A stretch of 64,000 nucleotides of DNA from Phyllobacterium chamaecytisi (lineage in GTDB: Bacteria; Pseudomonadota; Alphaproteobacteria; Rhizobiales; Rhizobiaceae), in the NCBI RefSeq assembly GCF_020164455.1, contig NZ_JAIQWW010000002.1, positions 248,001 to 312,000 on the forward strand, in the 5' to 3' direction. Each line of letters starts with the position of its first letter. The stretch's first letter is position 1. The notes below the pieces were generated by a model. That model was not told the origin of the DNA and made no database searches. It saw only the letters and a list, made by a program, of their open reading frames with translations. Positions 38,919 to 49,716 of this stretch are shown in pieces. Position numbers and translations under genes: made by a program.

Positions 38919-40244
38919 CTAAGGCTTCAGGAGTTTCTCCATCCCAGCCTTCGTGTTTGCAAGTGCATCGTCCAGGGTTTCCTGCCCCGACCAGTAGCCG
39001 GTGAATTCCTTCGCCTGCAGTTCGTAAACCGGGAAGGCATTGGCCGATGTAGCGCCGGTCATGACATAGCCATAGGCGCCGGCATATTGACCGAGCGTAA
39101 CGAGATCCGGCCGCTCCTTGGCAATCTTTGCCGCAACATCGGGCAGGAGCGCAGGCGAACCACCGCTGCGGGCATAAAGCAGGGCAGCGTCCTCGGTCGC
39201 CAGCCATTGGAGGAACTTGGCGGCACCTGGCTTGTTCTTGGCGTTCTTGTTGATACCAAGCCCGAGACCATGGATATGGTCAGCCCGCCCGGCCGAACCG
39301 GCTGGGGGCGCAACGATACCGACATTCTCGGCAACCGCCGGAGATTTGGCGGGATCGGTGAGTTCACTGGCTGCAGCATTCCACTGCAGTGCCGTCGCCA
39401 CCTGACCGGAGCCGAACGCAGCATTCGTTTCAGCGTATTCGTAGGACAGCGAATCTTTCGGCGAAGCACCCGCATCATAGAGCTTCTTGTAAAGTTCCAG
39501 CGCCGTCCGGTAAGCCGGAGAGTCGATGGTAATATTGCCCGAGGCATCCATCCAGTCGCCGCCATTGGCACGGGCCACAGACTGCCACACCATGATGTTG
39601 AAAAGCAGGTTCTTCATCTGCAGCACCGTGCCGTAGCGAACCGGGCTTTCGGGATTTACGGACTTGGCGAAATAAAGCGCGGTCGCCGCCCAGTCATCCC
39701 AGGTCCAGCTGTCGGGAGCCTTCGGCTCCAGGGCCTTGCCGAGATATTTCTCGCTGATCTCGGCATATTTGGCCTTGGCTGCCGGGTCGGCGAGCAAGGC
39801 GTCGACGAGATCCTTGCGATAATACATGAAATGCAAGGAGAGATCGGTTGGGACGCCATATTGCTTGCCATCGAACTGCATGGTCTTCAGCACCGACTCG
39901 CCAAATACCTTGGCGGCATCCGGGCCAAGGTCGACTGGCTCCATATAGGAGGCATAGCGGCCGATCGAATATGTCGCGAGAAGATTGATGTCGAAGGCGC
40001 TCGATCCCGCCGCCATGTCGGCCTGCAGTTTGTCGTAGAAGCCGTCGCGGCTATAGAAAAGCAGTTCAACTTTATCCGCGTCGGCAACGCCGCTTTGCGC
40101 GTTGTAAGCTTCGGCAACAGCGCGCAACGCGGTTTCTTCCGAACCGCCCGGCCAGCCTAGAACGGTAACCGCGGCGTTGGCGGCGCCCAAGGATGTCGTA
40201 ATCAGTGCGAGAGCCGATAAAGTGATTTTTGTAAATTTAAGCAT
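38919..40244 (-). CDS. Carbohydrate ABC transporter substrate-binding protein (family 1)
   Basis: 441 residues. Signal peptide 1-24 (GAANA). Family-1 sugar-binding features: YNAQSG... early, PTDLSLHFMYYRKDLVD (about 130-146), SWTWDDWAATA (about 177-187), QWNAAASE (about 275) and AAKFLQWLATEDAA (about 350). It collects a sugar in the periplasm; the neighbouring NanE-NanK fusion and NagR/DasR-like sites point to an N-acetyl amino sugar, but that is inference. ATG preceded by GGAGG. Starts three bases after the NanE-NanK stop. Confidence 0.9.
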   Translation of the reverse strand: MLKFTKITLSALALITTSLGAANAAVTVLGWPGGSEETALRAVAEAYNAQSGVADADKVELLFYSRDGFYDKLQADMAAGSSAFDINLLATYSIGRYASYMEPVDLGPDAAKVFGESVLKTMQFDGKQYGVPTDLSLHFMYYRKDLVDALLADPAAKAKYAEISEKYLGKALEPKAPDSWTWDDWAATALYFAKSVNPESPVRYGTVLQMKNLLFNIMVWQSVARANGGDWMDASGNITIDSPAYRTALELYKKLYDAGASPKDSLSYEYAETNAAFGSGQVATALQWNAAASELTDPAKSPAVAENVGIVAPPAGSAGRADHIHGLGLGINKNAKNKPGAAKFLQWLATEDAALLYARSGGSPALLPDVAAKIAKERPDLVTLGQYAGAYGYVMTGATSANAFPVYELQAKEFTGYWSGQETLDDALANTKAGMEKLLKP

Positions 40245-40247
40245 GTT

Positions 40248-41786
40248 CTAGCCTCCAATAATTGAGTTGGATTGTGCAATGGCGAGATCCGCCGCGCCGA
40301 TTACCCCCGCGTGACGGCCGAGACCGGCACTCACAAGGGTTGGACGCAGCGATATTTTGGGAAATGTAAATGCGCCCCGAACCTGATCGATATAGCCTTC
40401 GGCAAGCCCGATACCGCCGCCAATGACGATACACTTCGGATCGAGCGCCAGCTGTATGTTCTGGCAGAGTATAGCGAGTCTGCGGGCAGAAATTGCGATA
40501 ATATGCGATGCCCAGGGCGCGCCGGACCTCGCTGCGGCGAAGATGGCCGGTGCCTCCAGCTCATAGCCCGCCTTGCAGGCTTCCGCATTCATCCAGTGGC
40601 CGGAAATGCTGTCTTCGAGCGGTCGATGCGAGCATTCGAAGTAGCCCTGAAACAAGCCGAAATGACCGGCGGTTCCTTGCAAGAGCCGGCAGTTGATGAC
40701 GATGCCGCCGCCAATGCCGGTCGAGATCGTGAGGAACACCATGTCCTTCTGCGCGCCGGCGCCAAACCGGTGCTCGCCCCAGGCGGCGCATTGCGCATCG
40801 TTGACTGCAATTGCATCAACGCCGAAAGTATCGCGCAACCTGTCGATGAGGGGATAGCCTTGCGGCAGGTTGAGCGTTGCCGGATTGAGCGCTTGCCAAT
40901 GCCCGTCGACGACAATCCCTGTGACGGCAGCAGCAACCCTCCCGTAGGAGCCGCGCCAGTTGGCGACCTTTGTGGCGATAGCGTCGATCCAGCCGTCGGG
41001 ACCGAGATTGTGGTCGGTAGAAAATTGGACCTCCTCGATGACTTTGCCTTCTTTCACCAGACACGCCATCGTCTTGGTCCCGCCGATATCGATCGCAAGT
41101 ACGGCTTGGTTGGCTCTGCGTGAAAACCCGGCATCGATTGCCTGCTTGAACCACGAGGTGGCATGCTCGGTGCGGGTGATGGCGGAGCCGACGACAATGC
41201 TGAAGGCGCCCCGGCGAAGTGCCTCCGCTGCCTGCTCGGGAGTCCTGATACGGCCCTCCGCGATCACATAAGGGGTCAGTTTCCGCAGTCCGGCGATCAA
41301 CTCGAAATCTGGCGCATCGGGGACCGGTCCGCCGGTATAGCCGGACAGCGTCGACCCAACACAATCGGCACCCGCGGCCAGCGCGGCGCGACCATCCTCG
41401 ACCGACGAACAGTCCGCCATCGCCAAAGCGCCTTTGGCGTGAATGGCCGCAATGATATCTGCGACAGAATCGGGCCGCGGGCGCGATGTTGCGTCGAACG
41501 CGACAATCTGCGCGCCGGCATCGATCAGCGCCACCGCGTCGGCCACATCGGGCGTGATGCGGACGGGCGACGTTTCGAGATCTTTTTTAACGATACCGAT
41601 GATCGGCGCATCCGTCACCTGGCGGACCGCTCGCACATATTCCACAGATTCAATCCTGAGTGCGCTTGCACCTCCGGCGATCGCCGCCAAGGCAAACGCC
41701 GTGACCATGTCGGCACGATCCATCGGGCCGTCCGGAACCGGCTGGCAGGAGACGATAAGGCTGCGTTCGAGATCCCCGATTTTCAC
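40248..41786 (-). CDS. Fused N-acylmannosamine-6-phosphate 2-epimerase / ROK-family N-acylmannosamine kinase
   Basis: 512 residues, GTG start behind AGGA. Residues 1-225 form a NanE-type TIM barrel: IVSCQPVPDGPMD, RIESVEYVRAV, GIVKKDL, MADCSSVEDG and DCVGSTLSGYT. Residues 228-512 form a ROK kinase: ATP loop DIGGTKT (233-239), catalytic Asp about 330 in VNDAQ, and LTISTGIGGG (about 352-361). The two parts would convert N-acylmannosamine to its 6-phosphate and then to the glucosamine epimer, in the reverse order of the domains. Odd point: the ROK zinc box normally CxCGxxGC reads GYFECSHRPLED here (about 381-392), with a single Cys. Neighbours are a GntR regulator and a sugar importer. Confidence 0.9.
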   Translation of the reverse strand: MKIGDLERSLIVSCQPVPDGPMDRADMVTAFALAAIAGGASALRIESVEYVRAVRQVTDAPIIGIVKKDLETSPVRITPDVADAVALIDAGAQIVAFDATSRPRPDSVADIIAAIHAKGALAMADCSSVEDGRAALAAGADCVGSTLSGYTGGPVPDAPDFELIAGLRKLTPYVIAEGRIRTPEQAAEALRRGAFSIVVGSAITRTEHATSWFKQAIDAGFSRRANQAVLAIDIGGTKTMACLVKEGKVIEEVQFSTDHNLGPDGWIDAIATKVANWRGSYGRVAAAVTGIVVDGHWQALNPATLNLPQGYPLIDRLRDTFGVDAIAVNDAQCAAWGEHRFGAGAQKDMVFLTISTGIGGGIVINCRLLQGTAGHFGLFQGYFECSHRPLEDSISGHWMNAEACKAGYELEAPAIFAAARSGAPWASHIIAISARRLAILCQNIQLALDPKCIVIGGGIGLAEGYIDQVRGAFTFPKISLRPTLVSAGLGRHAGVIGAADLAIAQSNSIIGG

Positions 41787-41825: not shown

Positions 41826-41857
41826 ATACCAGATTGCAACCAGTCAAAAACTGGTAT
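41826..41857. promoter_or_regulatory. DasR/NagR-like operator cluster before the NanE-NanK gene
   Basis: ATACCAG (41826-41832), then ACCAGT-CAAAA-ACTGGT (41839-41855) continuing to ACTGGTAT. These half-sites match the ACTGGT...ACCAGT pattern known for DasR/NagR-type GntR regulators. They lie in the 70 bases between the regulator stop and the fusion gene, and the last bases overlap the regulator stop codon. Confidence 0.6.
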
Positions 41858-42606
41858 TAGCGGCTTAACTCCGTAACGAAATCGTAGAGATCGCCGCGAT
41901 ACCTTGTTTCGGTAAATTCCACGGGCTGGTCGTCGGCAAGGAAACAACGCCGTTCAATGATAAGCAACGGTGAGCCAACCGCACATTTCAACAGCTCGCT
42001 GTCACGGACCGAAGCGGGCCGCGAACGCAGCCGTTGTATGGCTCGCTGCGGCAACGCACTGCGCTTTGCCAGTGCCTCGTATAGGGAGTCGCCAACGAGT
42101 TCGGGTGATGGCAGAAACTTTGCCGGAACGACTGCAGTCTCGTAGGCGGCGGGCTCCCCGTCAGCGGTTCGTATCCGTTTCAAGCGAATGATATCGGCAT
42201 TTGGCGGCAAGGCGAGCGCCATCGCTTCCGCCGGGGATGGTCGGCTTATTTCCTTGGAAATCCAGATACATCCGGGTTCAAGCCCCCGTGCAACCATATC
42301 CTCGGAAAAGCTGGCAAGGGTCGAAAGCGATTTCTCGACAGGAACGCTTACTTCAGTCTTCGCGCCATGCCGCCGCCGCAAATGGCCATCCTGGATAAGA
42401 AGTTCCAGGGCCTTCCTGACGGTCACCCGCGAAAGCGAAAGAGCCTCCGCCACGGCCCGCTCGCCTGGAAGAGTAGACCCTCGTTTTATGCGATTGCTGA
42501 TGATGAGATCCTGCAGCGCCATCTTCAATTTCTTGTGCAGGGGAATTCCCGTTTCGAACGCATCGATCCGCGACCGGATCTCCGCTAACAGCTGCTGGCG
42601 TTCCAT
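41857..42606 (-). CDS. GntR/HutC-type transcriptional regulator with UTRA domain
   Basis: 249 residues, ATG behind AAGGAGA. The winged helix (about 20-88) has PLHKKLKMALQDLIISNRI, LPGERAVAEALSLSRVTVRKALELL and the wing DGHLRRRHGAKTEV. The UTRA effector domain (about 100-245) includes MVARGLEPG and IRLKRIRTADGEPAAYE, ending RYRGDLYDFVTELSR. NagR and DasR, which sense amino-sugar phosphates, share this architecture. Matching operator half-sites lie before it and between it and the NanE-NanK gene, so it probably represses its own operon until an amino-sugar phosphate builds up. Confidence 0.92.
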   Translation of the reverse strand: MERQQLLAEIRSRIDAFETGIPLHKKLKMALQDLIISNRIKRGSTLPGERAVAEALSLSRVTVRKALELLIQDGHLRRRHGAKTEVSVPVEKSLSTLASFSEDMVARGLEPGCIWISKEISRPSPAEAMALALPPNADIIRLKRIRTADGEPAAYETAVVPAKFLPSPELVGDSLYEALAKRSALPQRAIQRLRSRPASVRDSELLKCAVGSPLLIIERRCFLADDQPVEFTETRYRGDLYDFVTELSR

Positions 42607-42980: not shown

Positions 42981-44732
42981 GTGCATCAAGAGGTCTCACT
43001 CTTAGCGACGGTTGCTATCGGCTTTGTGTTTGCCGCGGTCTTCGGCTATCTGGCCGATCGCCTGCGCTTGCCGCCGCTCGTCGGCTATCTCGTCGCCGGC
43101 ATCATGATGGGCCCGTATACACCAGGCATCGTCGCCGATGCCGGGCTTGCCTCGCAGCTCGCGGAAATGGGCGTTATCCTGCTAATGTTCGGTGTGGGCC
43201 TGCATTTTTCCGCCTCCGATCTGTTGGCGGTTCGAGGGGTCGCTGTCCCCGGAGCGCTGGGGCGTATCCTGCTTGCTACCCTGCTCGGCATTGGCCTTTG
43301 TTCGTTGTGGGGCTGGGGTCTTGGTGCGGGTATCGTCTTTGGCCTAAGTCTTTCCGTCGCCAGCACTGTGGTCCTGCTCAAGGCGCTTGAAGAGCACAAT
43401 CAGGTGGACTCCGTAAATGGCCGCGTGACCGTCGGCTGGCTCATCGTCGAAGATCTGGCGATGGTTCTCGCCTTGGTGCTTTTGCCAGCATTTTCAGGTG
43501 TTTTGGGCGGTAATGCGGACGCAGCCGATGCCGCCACGGCGGGTGGTGGTCTTGCCATCACATTGACCATCGCCATAACCCTGCTCAAGGTCGGCGCTTT
43601 TACGGTGATGGCGATATACTTCGGCCCGAAGGTCGTTCCCTGGATTCTCACATTGGTCGCCCGAACCGGCTCACCCGAACTGTTCACACTTTCCGTTCTC
43701 GCCGTTGCCCTCGGCATCGCCTTTGGCTCGGCGGAGATTTTCGGCGTATCCTTTGCGCTTGGAGCGTTTGTCGCAGGCGTCGTCATGAGCGAGTCGCATC
43801 TCAGCCATCGCGCGGCCGCCGACTCCCTGCCTTTGCAGAATGCATTCGCAGTGCTGTTTTTCGTTTCGGTCGGGATGCTTTTCGACCCCTATGTCATCAT
43901 CCGCGACCCGCTTGCGGTTGCTGCCGTGCTGGCGCTGATCATCTTTGGTAAATCGTTGATTGGGTTCCTGATCGTCATTCTCTTACGCTTTCCGATCTCG
44001 ATGGGCCTGTCGGTCGCTGCCGGTCTGGCGCAGATCGGTGAGTTTTCTTTCATTTTGGCTAGTCTCGGTGTTTCGCTTGGCCTTTTGCCGCGTGAGGGAC
44101 AGGATCTGATACTCGCCGGCGCCATCCTGTCGATCATCGTCAATCCACTCGTTCTGCTCGGTGGCGACTGGCTACAAAAGGCCGTTCATCGAAAGTGGCC
44201 ATCCCTGTTTGAACAATACGGAAAGAGCAAGCATGACGCACTTTCTCGCGAGTTGGACCGTATCCGGAAGATCAGCGAAGATAGAAACAGGCAGCATCAG
44301 TTGGAAATGCAGCAGCTGATCGAAACTTTCCCTATGTTTGCCCAGGTTGACGAAAATTCTCAGGAAGAGCTTCTCCTGTTGTTTCGGCCAAAGGTGGCAT
44401 CGCCGGGCGAACGCGTCATCCGCATCGGCGATCGCGGCGACGGCATGTATTTCATTTCATCGGGAGCGGTAGAGGTTCAACTGGAGGACGACCCGGTTCG
44501 TCTCCAGGCTGGCTCCTTCTTTGGCGAAATGGCACTTTTGAGCGGTGGGCGCAGGACCGCGGATGTCATCGCTGTCGATTTTTGCCAGTTCCTGGTTCTC
44601 GAACGCCGGGATTTTAATGTTTTCATGTCGAAGCATCCCGCACTTCGAGCCGCAGTCAGCGATATGGCCAAAGAGAGAAAAGCGATGAACGTTTCACGCA
44701 GGAAGCGCAAGAAGTCTCTCGATGCGACGTAA
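42981..44732 (+). CDS. CPA2-family cation/proton antiporter with C-terminal cyclic-nucleotide-binding domain
   Basis: 583 residues, GTG start behind GAAAGAGAG. Twelve or so membrane helices (about 5-395) of the KefB/YbaL type, including GYLVAGIMMGPYTPG and the VAVALGIAFGSAEIFGVSFALGAFVAG stretch. A charged linker follows (about 405-455), then a cyclic-nucleotide-binding fold (about 460-565) with the phosphate cassette FFGEMALLSGGRRTA; Glu about 516 and Arg about 525, the residues that hold cAMP/cGMP, are present. So K+/H+ or Na+/H+ exchange may be gated by a cyclic nucleotide. There is no RCK/TrkA-N domain of the usual KefB kind. Confidence 0.88.
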   Translation: MHQEVSLLATVAIGFVFAAVFGYLADRLRLPPLVGYLVAGIMMGPYTPGIVADAGLASQLAEMGVILLMFGVGLHFSASDLLAVRGVAVPGALGRILLATLLGIGLCSLWGWGLGAGIVFGLSLSVASTVVLLKALEEHNQVDSVNGRVTVGWLIVEDLAMVLALVLLPAFSGVLGGNADAADAATAGGGLAITLTIAITLLKVGAFTVMAIYFGPKVVPWILTLVARTGSPELFTLSVLAVALGIAFGSAEIFGVSFALGAFVAGVVMSESHLSHRAAADSLPLQNAFAVLFFVSVGMLFDPYVIIRDPLAVAAVLALIIFGKSLIGFLIVILLRFPISMGLSVAAGLAQIGEFSFILASLGVSLGLLPREGQDLILAGAILSIIVNPLVLLGGDWLQKAVHRKWPSLFEQYGKSKHDALSRELDRIRKISEDRNRQHQLEMQQLIETFPMFAQVDENSQEELLLLFRPKVASPGERVIRIGDRGDGMYFISSGAVEVQLEDDPVRLQAGSFFGEMALLSGGRRTADVIAVDFCQFLVLERRDFNVFMSKHPALRAAVSDMAKERKAMNVSRRKRKKSLDAT

Positions 44733-44735
44733 TTG

Positions 44736-47399
44736 CTAATCCGACATCAGCGACAGCGTGGAAAATCCCCGCATCGCATCGGCCACGAGACACTTGTCAG
44801 TCAAGGTCAATCGATTGCCCGTCATGATATCCTGAAATTCCTTGCCATTGATTTCCGCTGGAATATGCACTGCGGTGTCGCCCCAAGCGGGTATCGGCAT
44901 GAAGGGTTCGTGAAACCGTTTCACCGCATCGAACGGTTGGCGGGGCACGGCGACCAGACAATAGTCGGATTCGTGCTTGCGTAGAAAAGCGATGATGTTT
45001 TTCCGCTTCTTGCCGGTAACCTTCAGAGGAATGTATTGGCCGCCGATAAACAGTTCAGGCTTGCGCTTTCGCGCCCGAAGATGGGCGGAGACAAGCCGCT
45101 GTTTGACGGCACCCGTATGCCAATCCTCTAGGAGAATGTTCAAGGGGCACTGATCTGCATAGGAAAGCCGGGCAGTAAGCGCATCGAAATCTATGTCATT
45201 CGATGCCGGAATGTTCGACACGGCGAAATCCCAGGATTCCGCTCCATTGTAGATGACAGGAACGCCGGGAGCAGTTGCCTTGAGAACAGTTTGTGAAAAA
45301 CTATTGAGCGCGCCGGCTATCCAGAAAGGCCGCATCGTCTTCGTGAAGTCCAGAAGGAAAGAACGGTCGGCGAAGAGCTGATCGATATAGTCCATCACGG
45401 CCAACTCATAGGGCTTGTTGATTTCCGTCCAGAAGGAATCTCTCTGAATTTCGCTGATCGCTTTCTGGATGAATGCGCAAAGATCGTTACGGACAGCCTG
45501 CAGACTGTTTTCATCGTCGATCTGCAGCGTCAAAGGCCAGATCGCAGCAAGGGTTTGATAGATCAGCCATTCAGTCTGAGGATCCGGCGCCAGCGTTTCC
45601 TCGATCGTTGCGACATTGCCCGCATGGAGCGTGCGCCACTGCGCCACCGCCTCGCCCCAGATTTCCGGCGCTTCGGACAGAGCGAGTAGCCGCATTCTCG
45701 CATCCTCGCCGAATTTGGTGGTGTAGGAAAACGTTGTCGCCAGCATGCCTTTAGGCGCGACCGTGGCTTTGCGCAGCATCTTTTCGTGGAAAAGCTGCAC
45801 CGAATCCCCGGCATCACTCGAGCGTAATATGACTTCGTCAAGCGCGATCGGCCCACGGCCATATTGGTACGATTGCTCGATTGCCTGTGCCATGACAGCG
45901 GCAGTCAATTGCTGGAATCTCACAATGAATTGGCCGATTTTTCCGTCAGGATCATTCGCCGCTTCCAATATGCGCTGTATGAATTTCAGCGGAGCGGGAT
46001 CGGCAGCGTCGGGGCGTGCCAAAATATCGGAAATGGTGGACTGAAGAATGGATCGATAGGATTCGAGAATTCCCGCCTCATTCGAATAGGTCCGGAAAAC
46101 CGGGAGTTCGATGACGAGATCGCTTACCGCGCGCCCCAGCTCAAGCTCATCGGCGGCATTCGGTTCTATAACGATGAGCAGGTCGACCAGAGCCTGCAGT
46201 TCCGCGGCGAATCTGCTGTGCAGTACAGCTGACTTTGCCCCGCGATAGTGGAGCGTACTTTGCGCACCAATATTGCTGCTGTAGAGTTGTTCGAGCGCAG
46301 CCAGCTTTGCATGATCCACCATAAGGTTCGCGGTCACCGAAATGAACTCGTAGCCTGCGGTTCCATCGACATGCCATGAAGCAGGATAAGGTTCGCCGTC
46401 CAACAGGATCTTGTCGGCGACCAGATAGGCTTTTTCACCGGCGTGCCGGCGCAATTCCTGCGAATATGTTTCAGGATCGGCCAGACCGTCGATCTGGTTG
46501 ACACGAAAACCGATGACTTGACTGATCTCGAGCAGATCAAGTGGAACCTCGTGAAAATCCTTGAATGGTTGTGTCTTTTCGACCTGAACACCGACAGAGT
46601 GCATGGATTCGAACGAGTGGCGGTAGTTCATCCGGCGGCGAGCCTTCTGACGTGTCACCAGACGCCACTTTTGCGCCGAAAGCACGTCTTCGAGCATCGA
46701 GATGTCCTGTGAGATATCTTTCAGTCGCGACGCAAGCACAAGACGATGAGCGAGTTCACTGGTGTCGTAAAGTTCCCGCAACCGGGCATGAAATTCGTCC
46801 GATCGGTGCGGGTCAGCCTCGTTTACTGCATCCAGGAAATCATTCGAGAGAGGGTTGTCGACGCCGCGAAGGATAGTTTCATAGGATTTTGGATACAGCG
46901 GATAAAACACCTCGCCGTAAGAGATGCCGAGGGCAAATTTATTCGCATCGAATTTGAGCTGCAGCGTCTCGGCCTGGACTTCTTCGATCAACGGGCGCTG
47001 CAGAACAGGCAGCGCCAGGCGCTTCTTCCAGTCGACGTCGAAATGATCGGCGTAGCGGCTCTTTGATCCCCATTCGAGAACATCAAACCACCAGGGATTA
47101 TGGTGGGTAGCTGGCAGCTGGTTTGGATTGATATCGACGATGAGGCCCATACCGAACTTGCGAAGTGCAGAATCGAGGGCGACGAAGCCGTCTTCACCCC
47201 CGGCGTCCCTGTCCAGCTTCGTTGGGTTATAGGATTTCTTGCCGCGACCGACATCGATCGAGCTGAAAATTGGAGAAATGGTGAGCGTGTCGATGCCGAG
47301 ATTATTCAGGTACGGCACTATTGCAGCGATGTCATTGAAGGACAGTCCGTTCCTCAATTGAATGCGATAGGCGGAATTGGGTAAGGCCATATTCTTCAC
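44736..47399 (-). CDS. TreY-like (maltooligosyl trehalose synthase family, GH13) protein with altered catalytic residues
   Basis: 887 residues. The whole length follows TreY: YRIQLRNGLSFND at the start, a shape like SPIFSS...GSYNP, NPWWFDVLEWG, FDVDW, NYR (258-260), QVIGFRV (295-300), GTAGYEF (346-352), and EDARMRLLALSE (565-576). But the catalytic positions differ: RIDH is RVNQ (nucleophile Asp to Asn301), EKIL is DKIL (acid/base Glu to Asp329), HDTKR is YTTKF (third Asp to Thr560), and DIVPNH is DINPNQ. No treZ is nearby. The GTG at 47399 overlaps the otsA stop by four bases; ATG 47390 is an alternative. It may be inactive or have a new role. Confidence 0.85.
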   Translation of the reverse strand: MKNMALPNSAYRIQLRNGLSFNDIAAIVPYLNNLGIDTLTISPIFSSIDVGRGKKSYNPTKLDRDAGGEDGFVALDSALRKFGMGLIVDINPNQLPATHHNPWWFDVLEWGSKSRYADHFDVDWKKRLALPVLQRPLIEEVQAETLQLKFDANKFALGISYGEVFYPLYPKSYETILRGVDNPLSNDFLDAVNEADPHRSDEFHARLRELYDTSELAHRLVLASRLKDISQDISMLEDVLSAQKWRLVTRQKARRRMNYRHSFESMHSVGVQVEKTQPFKDFHEVPLDLLEISQVIGFRVNQIDGLADPETYSQELRRHAGEKAYLVADKILLDGEPYPASWHVDGTAGYEFISVTANLMVDHAKLAALEQLYSSNIGAQSTLHYRGAKSAVLHSRFAAELQALVDLLIVIEPNAADELELGRAVSDLVIELPVFRTYSNEAGILESYRSILQSTISDILARPDAADPAPLKFIQRILEAANDPDGKIGQFIVRFQQLTAAVMAQAIEQSYQYGRGPIALDEVILRSSDAGDSVQLFHEKMLRKATVAPKGMLATTFSYTTKFGEDARMRLLALSEAPEIWGEAVAQWRTLHAGNVATIEETLAPDPQTEWLIYQTLAAIWPLTLQIDDENSLQAVRNDLCAFIQKAISEIQRDSFWTEINKPYELAVMDYIDQLFADRSFLLDFTKTMRPFWIAGALNSFSQTVLKATAPGVPVIYNGAESWDFAVSNIPASNDIDFDALTARLSYADQCPLNILLEDWHTGAVKQRLVSAHLRARKRKPELFIGGQYIPLKVTGKKRKNIIAFLRKHESDYCLVAVPRQPFDAVKRFHEPFMPIPAWGDTAVHIPAEINGKEFQDIMTGNRLTLTDKCLVADAMRGFSTLSLMSD

Positions 47400-48796
47400 G
47401 CAACCCGTTCATTGGCGGAGTGCTGATCGCCATGTTGCAGGGCATGGAGATATTCCCGCTGCCACCATTGCGCATCGTGATCGATGACACGCTTCAGAAG
47501 CTTGCGATGGCGCAGTTGCCGCTCTTCCAGCGGCATTGTGACAGCCGTCTTCAGAGCGTGCGCAACCTCGCTGATGTCGTAGGGATTGACAATGAGGGCC
47601 TCGCTCAGTTCCTCGGCTGCACCGGCGAACTTGGAGAGGATGAGGATGCCTGGATCCTTGTTGTCCTGAGCGGCGATGTATTCTTTGGCCACAAGGTTCA
47701 TTCCGTCCCGCAACGGCGTTATCAGCCCGATCAGACTTGCCCGAAACAGAGGGGCCAGCTTTTCCCTTGGAATGTTCCGATTGATGTATTGGACAGGCGC
47801 CCAGTTGAAATCCGCGAATCTGCCATTGACCGCGCCGGCAAGCTGCTCGAGTTCGGCCTTGATATCGGAATAGGCGGTGACATCCTCCCTGGATGGCGAG
47901 GCAATCTGCAAGTAGTCCGCATGCCCCTGATATTCGGGACAAATCTCCAGAAATTTTCTAAAGGCTTTCATTCGGTGCGGCAGGCCTTTCGAATAGTCGA
48001 GGCGATCCGCAGAAATGACCTGGAAGCGCTTCAGAACAGTGCGGCGCATGCGTTCGAGTTCGATCGTATCGTCGGTTCTGGCCGACACTTTCGCAAACTG
48101 CTTCACATCGATGCCGATGGGGAAATGCCCGATATGGATTGTCCGATCGTTGACGCGAACCAGTTCGGGCGAAATGATTGCCGCATCGGAATGTTCTTTC
48201 AGATAGCGATGAAAATTATGGACGTCATTGATCGTCTGGAAGCCGATGAGATCAAACTGCAGCATGCAATATCGCAGCCATTCGTGGCGAGGGACGGCAG
48301 AGAAGATGTCGGCAGAGGGGAACGGAATGTGCAGGAAAAATCCGATCCTGTTCTTGTGTCCTCGTTTGCGGAGCTCAGCGGCCATAGGTATCAGATGGTA
48401 ATCGTGCACCCAGATAACGTCGTCATCCCGCAGATGCGGACTGATCATCTCGGCGAACTTCGCATTGGTTGCAGAATAGCAATCCACGAACTCCATGCGA
48501 TAGTCCATCAGGTCAAGGCGATAGTGAAAGGCTGGCCAAAGCACCTTGTTGGCGAAGCCGAGGTAATATTTTTCGTGTTCTTCGCTCGTCAGTGGGGTGG
48601 TCAGGCTCGTGACATTACCGTGTGCCTGAATTTTGGTTGTTGCGGTTTCTTCGGCGTCTACGACACTTCCGTCCCAGCCAGCCCAAAGGCCGCCTTGAGC
48701 TTTAAGCGCATCCACGATACCGACAGCGAGTCCGCCAATTTGAGTGTTCTTTCCCAAATTCGCCGTGCGATTTGAGATTACGACTAGCCGTCCCAT
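47396..48796 (-). CDS. otsA: Trehalose-6-phosphate synthase (GT20)
   Basis: 466 residues. GT20 hallmarks: MGRLVVISNRTANLG, GGLAVGI, HDYHLIPMA, GFFLHIPFPSADIF, GFQT, the substrate arginine-lysine pair in RLDYSKGLPHR, and late LRDGMNLVAKEYIA. It joins UDP- or ADP-glucose to glucose-6-phosphate to give trehalose-6-phosphate in the cytoplasm. ATG at 48796 behind AAGGGACA; the frame is open to 48832. An EcfG-type promoter stands 35 bases upstream of the ATG, consistent with osmotic/general stress control. The TreY-like gene overlaps its stop; otsB is divergent. Confidence 0.96.
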   Translation of the reverse strand: MGRLVVISNRTANLGKNTQIGGLAVGIVDALKAQGGLWAGWDGSVVDAEETATTKIQAHGNVTSLTTPLTSEEHEKYYLGFANKVLWPAFHYRLDLMDYRMEFVDCYSATNAKFAEMISPHLRDDDVIWVHDYHLIPMAAELRKRGHKNRIGFFLHIPFPSADIFSAVPRHEWLRYCMLQFDLIGFQTINDVHNFHRYLKEHSDAAIISPELVRVNDRTIHIGHFPIGIDVKQFAKVSARTDDTIELERMRRTVLKRFQVISADRLDYSKGLPHRMKAFRKFLEICPEYQGHADYLQIASPSREDVTAYSDIKAELEQLAGAVNGRFADFNWAPVQYINRNIPREKLAPLFRASLIGLITPLRDGMNLVAKEYIAAQDNKDPGILILSKFAGAAEELSEALIVNPYDISEVAHALKTAVTMPLEERQLRHRKLLKRVIDHDAQWWQREYLHALQHGDQHSANERVA

Positions 48797-48830
48797 AAAA
48801 TGTCCCTTGCATGCAGTCAGGACTCTAACC

Positions 48831-48855
48831 AACGCCTCAAATAAATGATGGTTCC
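48831..48855 (-). promoter_or_regulatory. EcfG-type (general stress sigma) promoter of otsA
   Basis: On the minus strand: GGAAC (48855-48851), 16 bases, CGTT (48834-48831). This matches the GGAAC-N16/17-CGTT consensus of the alphaproteobacterial general stress sigma factor EcfG/RpoE2. The CGTT is 34 bases before the otsA ATG. otsA is a known member of that regulon in rhizobia. Confidence 0.8.
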
Positions 48856-48945
48856 GGAAAAAAGTGGCAGCAAGTCAACTTTCATTGAACGATTTCGGGC
48901 CAGTTGAGTTCTCCCATGATGAGAGTTCGAGCAAAGGAAAGAGAT

Positions 48946-49716
48946 ATGCAGCCCAATACGGCGGTTGATGATGCGAGCCACCCACTGCCAGACGATCTGG
49001 ATGGTTGGGCGCTTTTCATAGACATTGACGGCACGCTGATTGATCTTGCGGCAACGCCTGAAAGCATTGTCATTCCTCCAGAGTTACCCCTTCAACTCAT
49101 GAAGCTGTCGCAAAAGGTGGATGGTGCCATGGCGCTCGTGACCGGCCGTTCCATTGCTGCTGTCGACGCGATGTTTGAACCCTATCACTTCACCGTCGCA
49201 GGACTTCATGGCGCGGAAATCCGCAGGGAAAATGCAGAAATTCTCCGGAAGGGGATGGAGGCGGGAGCGCTCGACCGCCCGCGCATGGTGTTGCAGAAAT
49301 TTGCGAGCCGATGGCCGGGTATGGTGATCGAGGACAAGGGCTTGGGGCTCGCCGTGCACTACCGGCAGGTGCCGGAAGCAGCTATTGCCGCTACTCATGC
49401 GGTCGATGGACTGGTCAAGGATCTCGGTTATGGGTGGAAGCGCCAGGACGGCAAGATGGTCATCGAAATTGGACCTGCCGGAACCAACAAAGGCATGGCG
49501 GTCGCGCACTTCATGGAAACTGCACCCTATGCGGGGCGCAAGCTTCTCGTTATGGGCGATGATCTGACCGACGAGACCATGTTCCGCTTTGCCAACGAAA
49601 CGGGAGGACGCTCGGTGAGGGTGGGCGATCCGCCTTTCGAGAGTGTTGCCGAATTCAAGCTGGACTCTGCAAATACTGTTCGATCATGGATCGCCACGAT
49701 GGTGGCTCGGCAATGA
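48946..49716 (+). CDS. otsB: Trehalose-6-phosphate phosphatase
   Basis: 256 residues. HAD-family motif I DIDGTLIDL (about 26-34), motif II VTGRS, and motif IV GDDLTDETMF with the substrate-cap region in between (EDKGLGLAVHYR). It removes the phosphate of trehalose-6-phosphate to give trehalose. The ATG at 48946 has AAAGGAAAGAG upstream; the frame extends to 48904. It is divergent from otsA across 149 bases, an arrangement unlike the usual otsBA operon, so the two may be controlled separately. Confidence 0.95.
   Translation: MQPNTAVDDASHPLPDDLDGWALFIDIDGTLIDLAATPESIVIPPELPLQLMKLSQKVDGAMALVTGRSIAAVDAMFEPYHFTVAGLHGAEIRRENAEILRKGMEAGALDRPRMVLQKFASRWPGMVIEDKGLGLAVHYRQVPEAAIAATHAVDGLVKDLGYGWKRQDGKMVIEIGPAGTNKGMAVAHFMETAPYAGRKLLVMGDDLTDETMFRFANETGGRSVRVGDPPFESVAEFKLDSANTVRSWIATMVARQ

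Follow-up and report, generated by a model that had tools for sequence, protein, structure and literature searches.

Trehalose is a known stress protectant, and many Phyllobacterium isolates are derived from plants. To our knowledge, OtsA is usually taken to work without a protein partner. Two yeast proteins attached to the trehalose-6-phosphate route, Tps3 and Tsl1, descend from the TPS/TPP family itself. They are described as putative regulatory proteins of that route (PMC9635654). In green plants a noncatalytic isoamylase paralogue, ISA2, is reported in which at least four of the five catalytic-site residues vary in every member examined, the nucleophile included; the protein is described as kept by selection and bound by its partner, ISA1 (PMC12510319). 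In Mycobacterium, the GH13 trehalose enzyme TreS forms a hetero-complex with maltokinase, which is also an enzyme of trehalose metabolism but a different one (5jy7).

The closest of the described systems is TreY (maltooligosyltrehalose synthase; GH13; solved as 1iv8, 5zcr, 3hje, 6lcu, and 6lcv), which resembles in both sequence and fold a protein, here called pTreY, encoded in the 64,000-nucleotide stretch of Phyllobacterium chamaecytisi DNA that we analyzed (the window). Unlike TreY, pTreY carries Asn/Asp/(Thr or Ala) in place of the Asp/Glu/Asp triad, has four altered motifs, and is linked to otsA. It is, as ISA2 is reported to be, a GH13 protein with altered catalytic residues that selection retains, but the partner of ISA2 is its own paralogue, whereas the candidate partner of pTreY is an unrelated GT20 enzyme, and pTreY is bacterial. 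Tps3 and Tsl1 are candidate regulators attached to the trehalose-6-phosphate route, as we propose for pTreY; pTreY, however, derives from TreY (GH13), which belongs to the other pathway, and shows no TPS/TPP descent in Pfam or NCBIfam. In the TreS-maltokinase complex both partners are catalytic, whereas pTreY is proposed to be non-catalytic. The genes concerned are the following.

44736..47399, minus strand: pTreY, 887 amino acids, altered catalytic triad (open reading frame, TreY profile, fold, and homologues)
47396..48832, minus strand: otsA, GT20 trehalose-6-phosphate synthase, directly upstream of pTreY (TIGR02400, 544 bits, slightly below the cutoff of 564.85; PF00982, 424 bits)
48904..49716, plus strand: otsB, trehalose-phosphatase, divergent from otsA (TIGR00685, 156 bits; PF02358; same place in 13 of 13)

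The pTreY reading frame opens with GTG and contains no internal stop. An initial annotation had stated that the protein follows TreY from end to end over 887 residues, and this is what was observed: the TreY profile TIGR02401 was matched at 617.2 bits (cutoff, 498.65) over positions 1 to 833 of 838, and 9 of 9 diverse pTreY members matched it with E values of 1e-20 or less. All Pfam and NCBIfam matches were of the GH13 or TreY type, with the sole exception of a weak match (E value, 0.089) to another glycosidase. A structure model (pLDDT, 89.3; pTM, 0.90) was compared with the PDB, and its best five matches were five TreY entries; in the predicted structure the full-length TreY fold is retained. 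The overlap with otsA that had been claimed holds in part. The GTG start gives a 4-nt overlap (GTGA), and five other species could have their start at this place too, but in the remaining seven there is a gap of 19 to 47 nt between otsA and pTreY under the chosen pTreY starts. An alternative in-frame ATG lies three codons downstream of the GTG; the RefSeq copy from P. zundukense starts at an in-frame ATG three codons later, with a gap to otsA of 5 nt.

The positions that correspond to the active site of TreY are as follows.

46497..46499, minus strand: Asn301 codon, where TreY has its nucleophile Asp (all 13 members have Asn; AAC and AAT codons)
46413..46415, minus strand: Asp329 codon, where TreY has its acid/base Glu (all 13 members have Asp; GAC in 12, GAT in 1)
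45720..45722, minus strand: Thr560 codon, site of the third TreY catalytic Asp (Thr in 7 and Ala in 6 of 13)
47118..47135, minus strand: DINPNQ (residues 89 to 94), site of TreY DIVPNH (V91N switched to an invariant residue; H94 relaxed)

Alignment by phmmer with the solved TreY 6lcu placed RVNQIDGL opposite RVDHPDGL, DKILLDGE opposite EKIIEGDE, and FSYTTKFGED opposite TTHDTKRSED. In TreY the same three columns hold Asp/Glu/Asp in 67 of 67 aligned rows (62 distinct sequences, some rows being one gene fetched twice). The 67 rows do not include loci L030, L124, and L125, nor 19 of the 32 that were read from a scan of 84,980 species (see below); of these, L030 was intact, as were 18 of the 19 scan loci, with L091 as the exception. 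Neither 6lcu nor the 67 rows revealed a shifted register that would restore Asp/Glu/Asp, and such a shift is ruled out; the initial placement of Asn301, Asp329, and Thr560 at the catalytic positions is confirmed, as is the reading of DINPNQ for the DxxPNH motif. The description of the protein as lacking its catalytic carboxylates is correct for sites 1 and 3 but not for site 2, where the change from Glu to Asp leaves one carboxylate in the triad. A literature search for mapped TreY catalytic residues found none, so the roles of the three positions (nucleophile Asp, acid/base Glu, and third Asp) are those we take from general GH13 knowledge, together with the conservation in 67 of 67 rows.

Further inspection revealed that the HGYD, NH, HD, and VDPDNRR motifs of TreY are all altered in pTreY. 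Half of the TreY-conserved columns are kept (50 of 101), Arg299, Lys330, and Asp304 among them. Asp329 and N521D, the latter a new carboxylate, show no variation among the 9 diverse members compared. Relaxed positions include 302 (Gln/Glu/Gly/Asp), 94 (Gln/His/Arg), 54 (Lys/Leu/Arg), and 717 (Tyr/His/Gln/Arg), which presumably line the -1 site, as in other GH13 proteins. From these sequences we strongly infer that TreY catalysis has been lost in pTreY, which would then be unable to isomerize maltooligosaccharides to maltooligosyltrehalose.

The initial annotation had found no treZ or glycogen genes nearby, and this extends genome-wide within the reach of three profiles. Profile searches of the window's genome detected no other GH13 protein (PF00128), GlgA (PF08323), or GlgP (PF00343), PF00128 being a profile of incomplete sensitivity that missed pTreY itself in two genomes (G305 and G266). 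As TreZ, GlgX, and GlgB are all GH13 proteins, none of them is indicated either, and TreY chemistry seems to be without both substrate and TreZ in this genome. When 12 pTreY genomes were surveyed, nine showed no other GH13 protein; two pTreY species other than that of the window have a GH13 cluster and a separate, intact TreY in it.

In order to determine the distribution of pTreY, related genomes were searched. The protein is present in 13 of 20 Phyllobacterium genomes, at 44 to 98% identity to the window's protein. The initial annotation had proposed asking whether the altered triad is conserved among homologues and always beside otsA, and both hold in 13 of 13: the triad is Asn/Asp/(Thr in 7, Ala in 6), and the open frames are 867 to 899 amino acids long. 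The pTreY group is monophyletic (SH-aLRT, 100) and in a quick tree of TreY sequences joins L031 (SH-aLRT, 89%), both on long branches. The 84,980-species scan, which relied on two peptide patterns that a diverged pTreY could escape, returned 44 loci. Ten were pTreY (nine titled Phyllobacterium and one 'Rhizobiales bacterium isolate AFS078673'), and the other 34 (32 read, 2 fragments set aside) gave 31 intact triads and the frameshifted and unreadable L091. In the family search, 98 of 297 genomes matched, 4 of them pTreY genomes; reading the loci of 26 others showed an intact triad each time, and the remaining, unread matches have at most 38% identity over their length to the window's protein, with short N-terminal pieces reaching 46%. 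The order search matched 151 of 397 genomes (best non-Phyllobacterium score, 722 bits versus 1552), and the triad was intact in all 27 loci read among 29 non-own loci. The class search matched 41 of 385, with a best non-own score of 666 bits (compared by score alone). A wider pTreY clade beyond Phyllobacterium was not found in the family, order, class, and 84,980-species searches. Literature titles and abstract openings mentioned no non-catalytic TreY and gave no account of the otsA-pTreY locus; in passages of the Phyllobacterium onerii genome paper, trehalose appears as a phenotype and an entry in a pathway list only (PMC10891626).

Judged by substitution rates, pTreY is under strong purifying selection. 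Its dN/dS was 0.066 to 0.142 in the eight usable of nine pairs, two of the higher values being at dS > 1, and was about twice that of OtsA; the comparisons omit the OtsA of the G299 pair and the saturated G300-G063 pair. The neighboring Kef antiporter gave 0.050 to 0.073 in five. Asn301 and Asp329 have been maintained despite synonymous codon changes. The distribution of constraint along the protein has shifted in four segments.

47229..47291, minus strand: residues 37 to 57, site of the TreY S-x-H-G-Y-D loop, variable now (entropy, 1.27 versus 0.46 bits in matched TreY sets)
45195..45266, minus strand: residues 712 to 735, site of the TreY VDPDNRR loop, variable now (entropy comparison with TreY; residues 731 to 734 have pLDDT < 50)
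45078..45185, minus strand: residues 739 to 774 (..LLEDWHTGAVKQR..), newly constrained, candidate partner or ligand site (entropy, 0.99 versus 1.90 bits; a control for window choice was run)
44844..44960, minus strand: residues 814 to 852, newly constrained, towards the C terminus (entropy, 1.09 versus 1.81 bits)

Two active-site loops have thus lost constraint and two C-terminal segments have gained it, and the shift exceeds that seen in each of three control clades of TreY. Neither catalytic region III nor region IV has become relaxed; region III is about as constrained as in TreY, and region IV is tighter (0.24 versus 0.37 bits in matched TreY sets). In a 36-residue scan, the most relaxed stretch of pTreY was residues 250 to 285, outside the active-site loops.

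The association with trehalose-6-phosphate synthesis was assessed from gene neighborhoods. In 13 of 13 Phyllobacterium pTreY genomes, pTreY lies directly behind otsA, with otsB divergent. The same arrangement holds in 10 of 10 named loci, whereas OtsA/OtsB was found in the fetched flanks of none of 36 other TreY-type loci. The window's further neighbors, Kef and GntR, recur in 5 of the 12 other neighborhoods fetched, and otsA and otsB recur in all 12. pTreY occurs in 13 of 14 OtsA-positive Phyllobacterium genomes versus 0 of 6 without detected OtsA (hypergeometric P = 1.8e-4, with kinship ignored and fewer independent events than apparent). The main branching is alike in the OtsA and pTreY trees, and of 100 OtsA columns conserved in 29 other Rhizobiaceae, 87 are unchanged in all 9 diverse members of the genus. 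One genome, G303, keeps otsBA and has no pTreY, probably through a single loss, and OtsA is therefore not strictly dependent on pTreY. An OtsA interface was sought among 27 residues that set apart the OtsAs of pTreY-bearing genomes, and none was found because 23 of them are also present in the G303 OtsA; there is thus no sign of an interface lost together with pTreY. The otsA-pTreY linkage may reflect shared expression alone.

The reading that we favor, and to which we give about an even chance, is that pTreY is a Phyllobacterium TreY pseudoenzyme in a fixed otsA-pTreY pair, repurposed as a non-catalytic OtsA partner or sensor. We call it a pseudoenzyme since its motifs are altered group-wide (13 of 13) and selection has preserved it; catalytic inactivity we infer. 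The role with OtsA is proposed from genomic evidence. A partner of this kind would bind either OtsA or one of its effectors (a sugar nucleotide, a sugar phosphate, or a glucan), with segments 739 to 774 and 814 to 852 as candidate sites, and would set OtsA activity or stability under stress, as noncatalytic ISA2 of GH13 would act on ISA1 or Tps3/Tsl1 on yeast trehalose synthesis. The initial proposal of a conserved, re-purposed TreY-fold protein is upheld in its claim of conservation and of a tie to otsA (triad in 13 of 13, purifying selection, adjacency in 13 of 13, and absence from the 6 OtsA-negative genomes).

Other explanations were weighed on the same evidence. Co-expression could be the whole of the link if pTreY were a carbohydrate sensor or store-binding protein acting elsewhere, in transcription, transport, or the cell envelope. 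This is consistent with the retained fold, the surviving half of the TreY-conserved columns, and the pairing with otsA in 13 of 13, but the tie to otsA and otsB holds across species with differing further neighbors, and we consider it unlikely. The invariant Asp329 and N521D, together with the unrelaxed regions III and IV, leave room for some chemistry. pTreY might catalyze a reaction by a new mechanism or at another site (Asp329, Asp521, Arg299, and Lys330); its substrate could be trehalose, T6P, or some further sugar of the OtsA branch, and the kept columns with Arg299, Lys330, and Asp304 would accord with this. A new site in the old pocket should, however, fix positions 302, 94, 54, and 717, and these are relaxed; a new activity we regard as distinctly improbable.

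That pTreY still works as a TreY, either weakly or with assistance from the substrate, we regard as highly improbable. It passes the NCBI equivalog cutoff of TIGR02401, site 2 is still a carboxylate, and the P. zundukense record annotates treY, but the nucleophile and the third Asp are gone in 13 of 13, the HGYD, NH, and HD motifs are altered, and the window's genome has no other detected GH13, GlgA, or GlgP. It is hardly credible that pTreY is what remains of an earlier treY now decaying in one lineage. The initial annotation had named a lineage-restricted decaying gene as a finding that would weaken its case; the restriction to Phyllobacterium is what the searches made have found, and the dN/dS of twice that of OtsA and the one probable loss (G303) point the same way, but decay is contradicted by the dN/dS range itself, by frames that are open in 13 of 13, and by the same substitutions despite deep divergence in a fold predicted to be intact.

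If the favored reading of pTreY as a non-catalytic OtsA partner is true, bacteria have evolved a dedicated partner for OtsA out of an enzyme from a competing pathway. We tentatively suggest, at somewhat less than even chances, that a whole TreY (GH13) was captured from one trehalose pathway and now serves OtsA (GT20), to which it is unrelated, as a non-catalytic subunit for regulation or sensing. Bacteria would then have their own equivalent of the fungal regulatory subunits, built on another fold, and this would be, within the searches made, the first non-catalytic TreY branch. OtsA with and without pTreY, and genomes with both pTreY and an intact TreY, offer natural contrasts that make the question directly testable. 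An annotation error also comes to light here: the protein of the window scores above the NCBI equivalog cutoff for TreY, and its P. zundukense counterpart is labeled malto-oligosyltrehalose synthase. Pathway predictions would wrongly credit such species with half of the TreY-TreZ route.

The initial annotation had placed Asn301, Asp329 and Thr560 of an 887-residue protein at the positions that hold the catalytic triad in maltooligosyltrehalose synthase (TreY). This protein and its Phyllobacterium homologues, a group of 13 members, are here called pTreY. The following genes of its neighborhood are considered:

44736-47399, minus strand: pTreY
47396-48832, minus strand: otsA, GT20 trehalose-6-phosphate synthase
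48904-49716, plus strand: otsB, trehalose-phosphatase
42981-44732, plus strand: Kef/CPA2-type cation:proton antiporter with a terminal cyclic-nucleotide-binding domain

The placement was borne out by alignment to the solved TreY structure 6lcu, which paired RVNQ with RVDH, DKIL with EKII, and SYTTKF with THDTKR, and by an 80-row alignment. In the latter, the catalytic columns held Asp, Glu and Asp in 67/67 TreY rows (62 distinct sequences); the pTreY members held Asn (13/13), Asp (13/13), and Thr (7) or Ala (6), so that the altered triad is common to all 13. The claim that every carboxylate is lost holds for the first and third sites but was too strong for the second, where E329D keeps one. 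At a threshold of at least 97%, 101 columns were conserved among the TreYs. Nine diverse pTreY members keep 50 of these unchanged, share a single different residue at 8 (V91N, D301N, E329D, T348A, T510S, N521D, T558S, and R563F), and are relaxed at 43. Relaxed positions include Tyr54-Asp55 of HGYD, His94 of NH, His302, and His559-Asp560 of HD; we take such motifs to line the -1 subsite and, likewise from knowledge of GH13 enzymes, assume the job of each catalytic residue. We consider it very likely that pTreY lacks TreY catalytic activity. Descent and fold place it in the TreY family, but its catalytic residues are not those of a TreY.

pTreY was present in 13/20 Phyllobacterium genomes, at 44 to 98% identity to the window's protein and down to 41% among members. 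Carriers include Phyllobacterium trifolii, onerii, endophyticum, bourgognense, brassicacearum, sophorae, and pellucidum, two other Phyllobacterium strains, one Rhizobiales bacterium genome, and P. zundukense, where the gene carries the annotation treY and its locus lies on a 394-kb plasmid. Two of the pTreY genomes encode a separate, intact TreY (30 to 34% identity to the group). In a quick tree, a branch of 0.95 changes per column, with SH-aLRT 100, separated the group from the other sequences. A lineage-restricted, decaying gene had been named as a result that would weaken the initial reading; decay was not what we found. The dN/dS ratio of pTreY was 0.066 to 0.142 overall (8 usable of 9 pairs) and 0.066 to 0.103 when the window was paired with five relatives; values involving the G299 species or genome G310 are rough, as dS exceeds 1 there. 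OtsA gave 0.030 to 0.075 (7 usable pairs) and the Kef antiporter 0.050 to 0.073 (5 pairs). Change at the Asn301 and Asp329 codons was synonymous only (AAC or AAT by species, and GAC, once GAT), indicating that the residues are kept and not the codons. By these measures pTreY is a conserved group and not a relic.

Homologues were found always beside otsA: pTreY lay directly 3' of otsA, with otsB divergent, in 13/13 members, while more distant neighbors varied. OtsA and OtsB adjoined 10/10 group members among the named loci and occurred within the fetched flanks (up to ~6 to 7 kb; shorter on some contigs) of 0/36 other TreY-type loci. OtsA was detected in 13/19 genus genomes searched, and the twentieth has OtsA by its pTreY neighborhood. 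pTreY occurs in 13/14 OtsA-positive versus 0/6 OtsA-negative genomes, one of the latter (G301) being only 88% complete (hypergeometric p 1.8e-4, counting genomes without correction for kinship). In the exception, G303, otsBA is present and an exonuclease-like frame, named from its sequence, occupies pTreY's place. The G303 OtsA clusters with four pTreY-bearing OtsAs (support 92/81, under the 95/80 mark), which suggests that pTreY was lost there. The main branching is common to the OtsA and pTreY trees. The reported overlap with otsA stood for the window (4 nt), and the same is possible in five relatives, but it is not genus-wide, since with our own start choice seven species have a gap of 19 to 47 nt; the RefSeq start of the P. 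zundukense pTreY is a later ATG.

TreY is described as converting linear glucans to maltooligosyltrehalose, from which TreZ, also a GH13 enzyme, releases trehalose (PMC11046441). The earlier remark that no treZ or glycogen genes are near could be extended genome-wide: pTreY was the sole match to a GH13 profile in the window's 6.36-Mb genome, and profile searches of that genome detected neither glycogen synthase (PF08323) nor phosphorylase (PF00343). Nine of the 12 pTreY genomes in a GH13 survey of the genus had no other GH13 protein, one (G266) had one, and two (G299 and G304) had a GH13 cluster including the intact TreY, as counted with a model of incomplete sensitivity that failed to pick up the pTreY of G305 and G266. 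There is apparently little room for TreY chemistry in the window's genome. The intact TreYs of G299 and G304 share 58% identity, versus 77% for the pTreYs of these species, suggesting that they were acquired separately.

Sequence entropy was compared with 343 sets of nine family TreYs matched for mean identity (0.47 to 0.56), comprising 342 random, hence overlapping, draws from 21 TreYs and one clade. pTreY was more variable at residues 37-57 (1.27 versus 0.46 bits), residues 712-735 (1.29 versus 0.45), catalytic region I (0.66 versus 0.28), and region II (0.34 versus 0.20), and more constrained at residues 739-774 (0.99 versus 1.90) and 814-852 (1.09 versus 1.81). Region III was about equal (0.51 versus 0.54) and region IV tighter (0.24 versus 0.37), which argues that the old site was not simply abandoned. 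Because the segments were chosen after a scan, three equally divergent TreY clades were scanned in the same way as controls. With 21 residues, the largest gain and relaxation were 0.71 and 0.54 in these clades and 1.15 (745-765) and 1.03 (717-737) in pTreY; with 36 residues, they were 0.53 and 0.46, and 0.81 (738-773) and 0.71 (250-285), respectively, the last stretch not being an active-site loop. A change of job from the pocket to another surface would be expected to look like this, with 739-774 and 814-852 as candidate surface or contact sites.

Since it adjoins otsA, occurs in the genus only with OtsA, apparently has no TreY chemistry, and has a glucan-gripping fold, pTreY is most likely a pseudoenzyme serving OtsA. 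Its fold is one made to grip alpha-glucans, and pTreY may bind OtsA and may tune it to a carbohydrate signal. OtsA itself is probably active, as 87/100 conserved columns are kept in all nine diverse members; the window's OtsA scored 544 bits, just below the equivalog cutoff of 565. Against a partnership, however, the G303 OtsA, which lacks pTreY, resembles the other OtsAs. A less likely reading is that pTreY catalyzes some reaction of its own, to which three features would point: Asp329 is invariant, Asp521 is newly gained, and region IV is tight. For a pseudoenzyme serving OtsA, the nearest published precedent found is ISA2, a GH13 paralogue, although not a TreY, described as having altered catalytic residues, being kept across green plants, and being bound by ISA1 (PMC12510319). 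Yeast Tps3 and Tsl1, to which a putative regulatory role in the trehalose-6-phosphate route is ascribed (PMC9635654), likewise are not TreYs. At the level of titles and abstract openings, no report of a noncatalytic TreY was found; pTreY would be a new case of a known kind of protein.

In the quick tree, the row nearest to pTreY was a long-branched TreY of Rhizobium sp. L1K21 (loci L031/L069). Its triad is intact, with HDTKFSED for HDTKRGED and ESLA after the YQG motif, where other TreYs mostly have ExxD; OtsA/OtsB were not found within its fetched flanks. The P. zundukense locus (L179) lies on NZ_CP104969.1, the 394-kb plasmid, to which the window's contig (397,739 bases) is near in size and equal in local gene order, whereas the G310 locus lies on a 3.95-Mb contig; the otsA-pTreY cassette may therefore have switched replicon within the genus. 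The Kef antiporter gene, convergent with pTreY, adjoins it in 5/12 other neighborhoods fetched. Beyond it lies what looks like an operon for amino-sugar or sialic-acid uptake and use:

38919-40244: sugar-type solute-binding protein
40248-41786, minus strand: N-acetylmannosamine-6-phosphate epimerase (NanE) fused to a ROK-family sugar-kinase domain, 512 residues, adjoining the genes on either side
41857-42606: GntR/UTRA regulator
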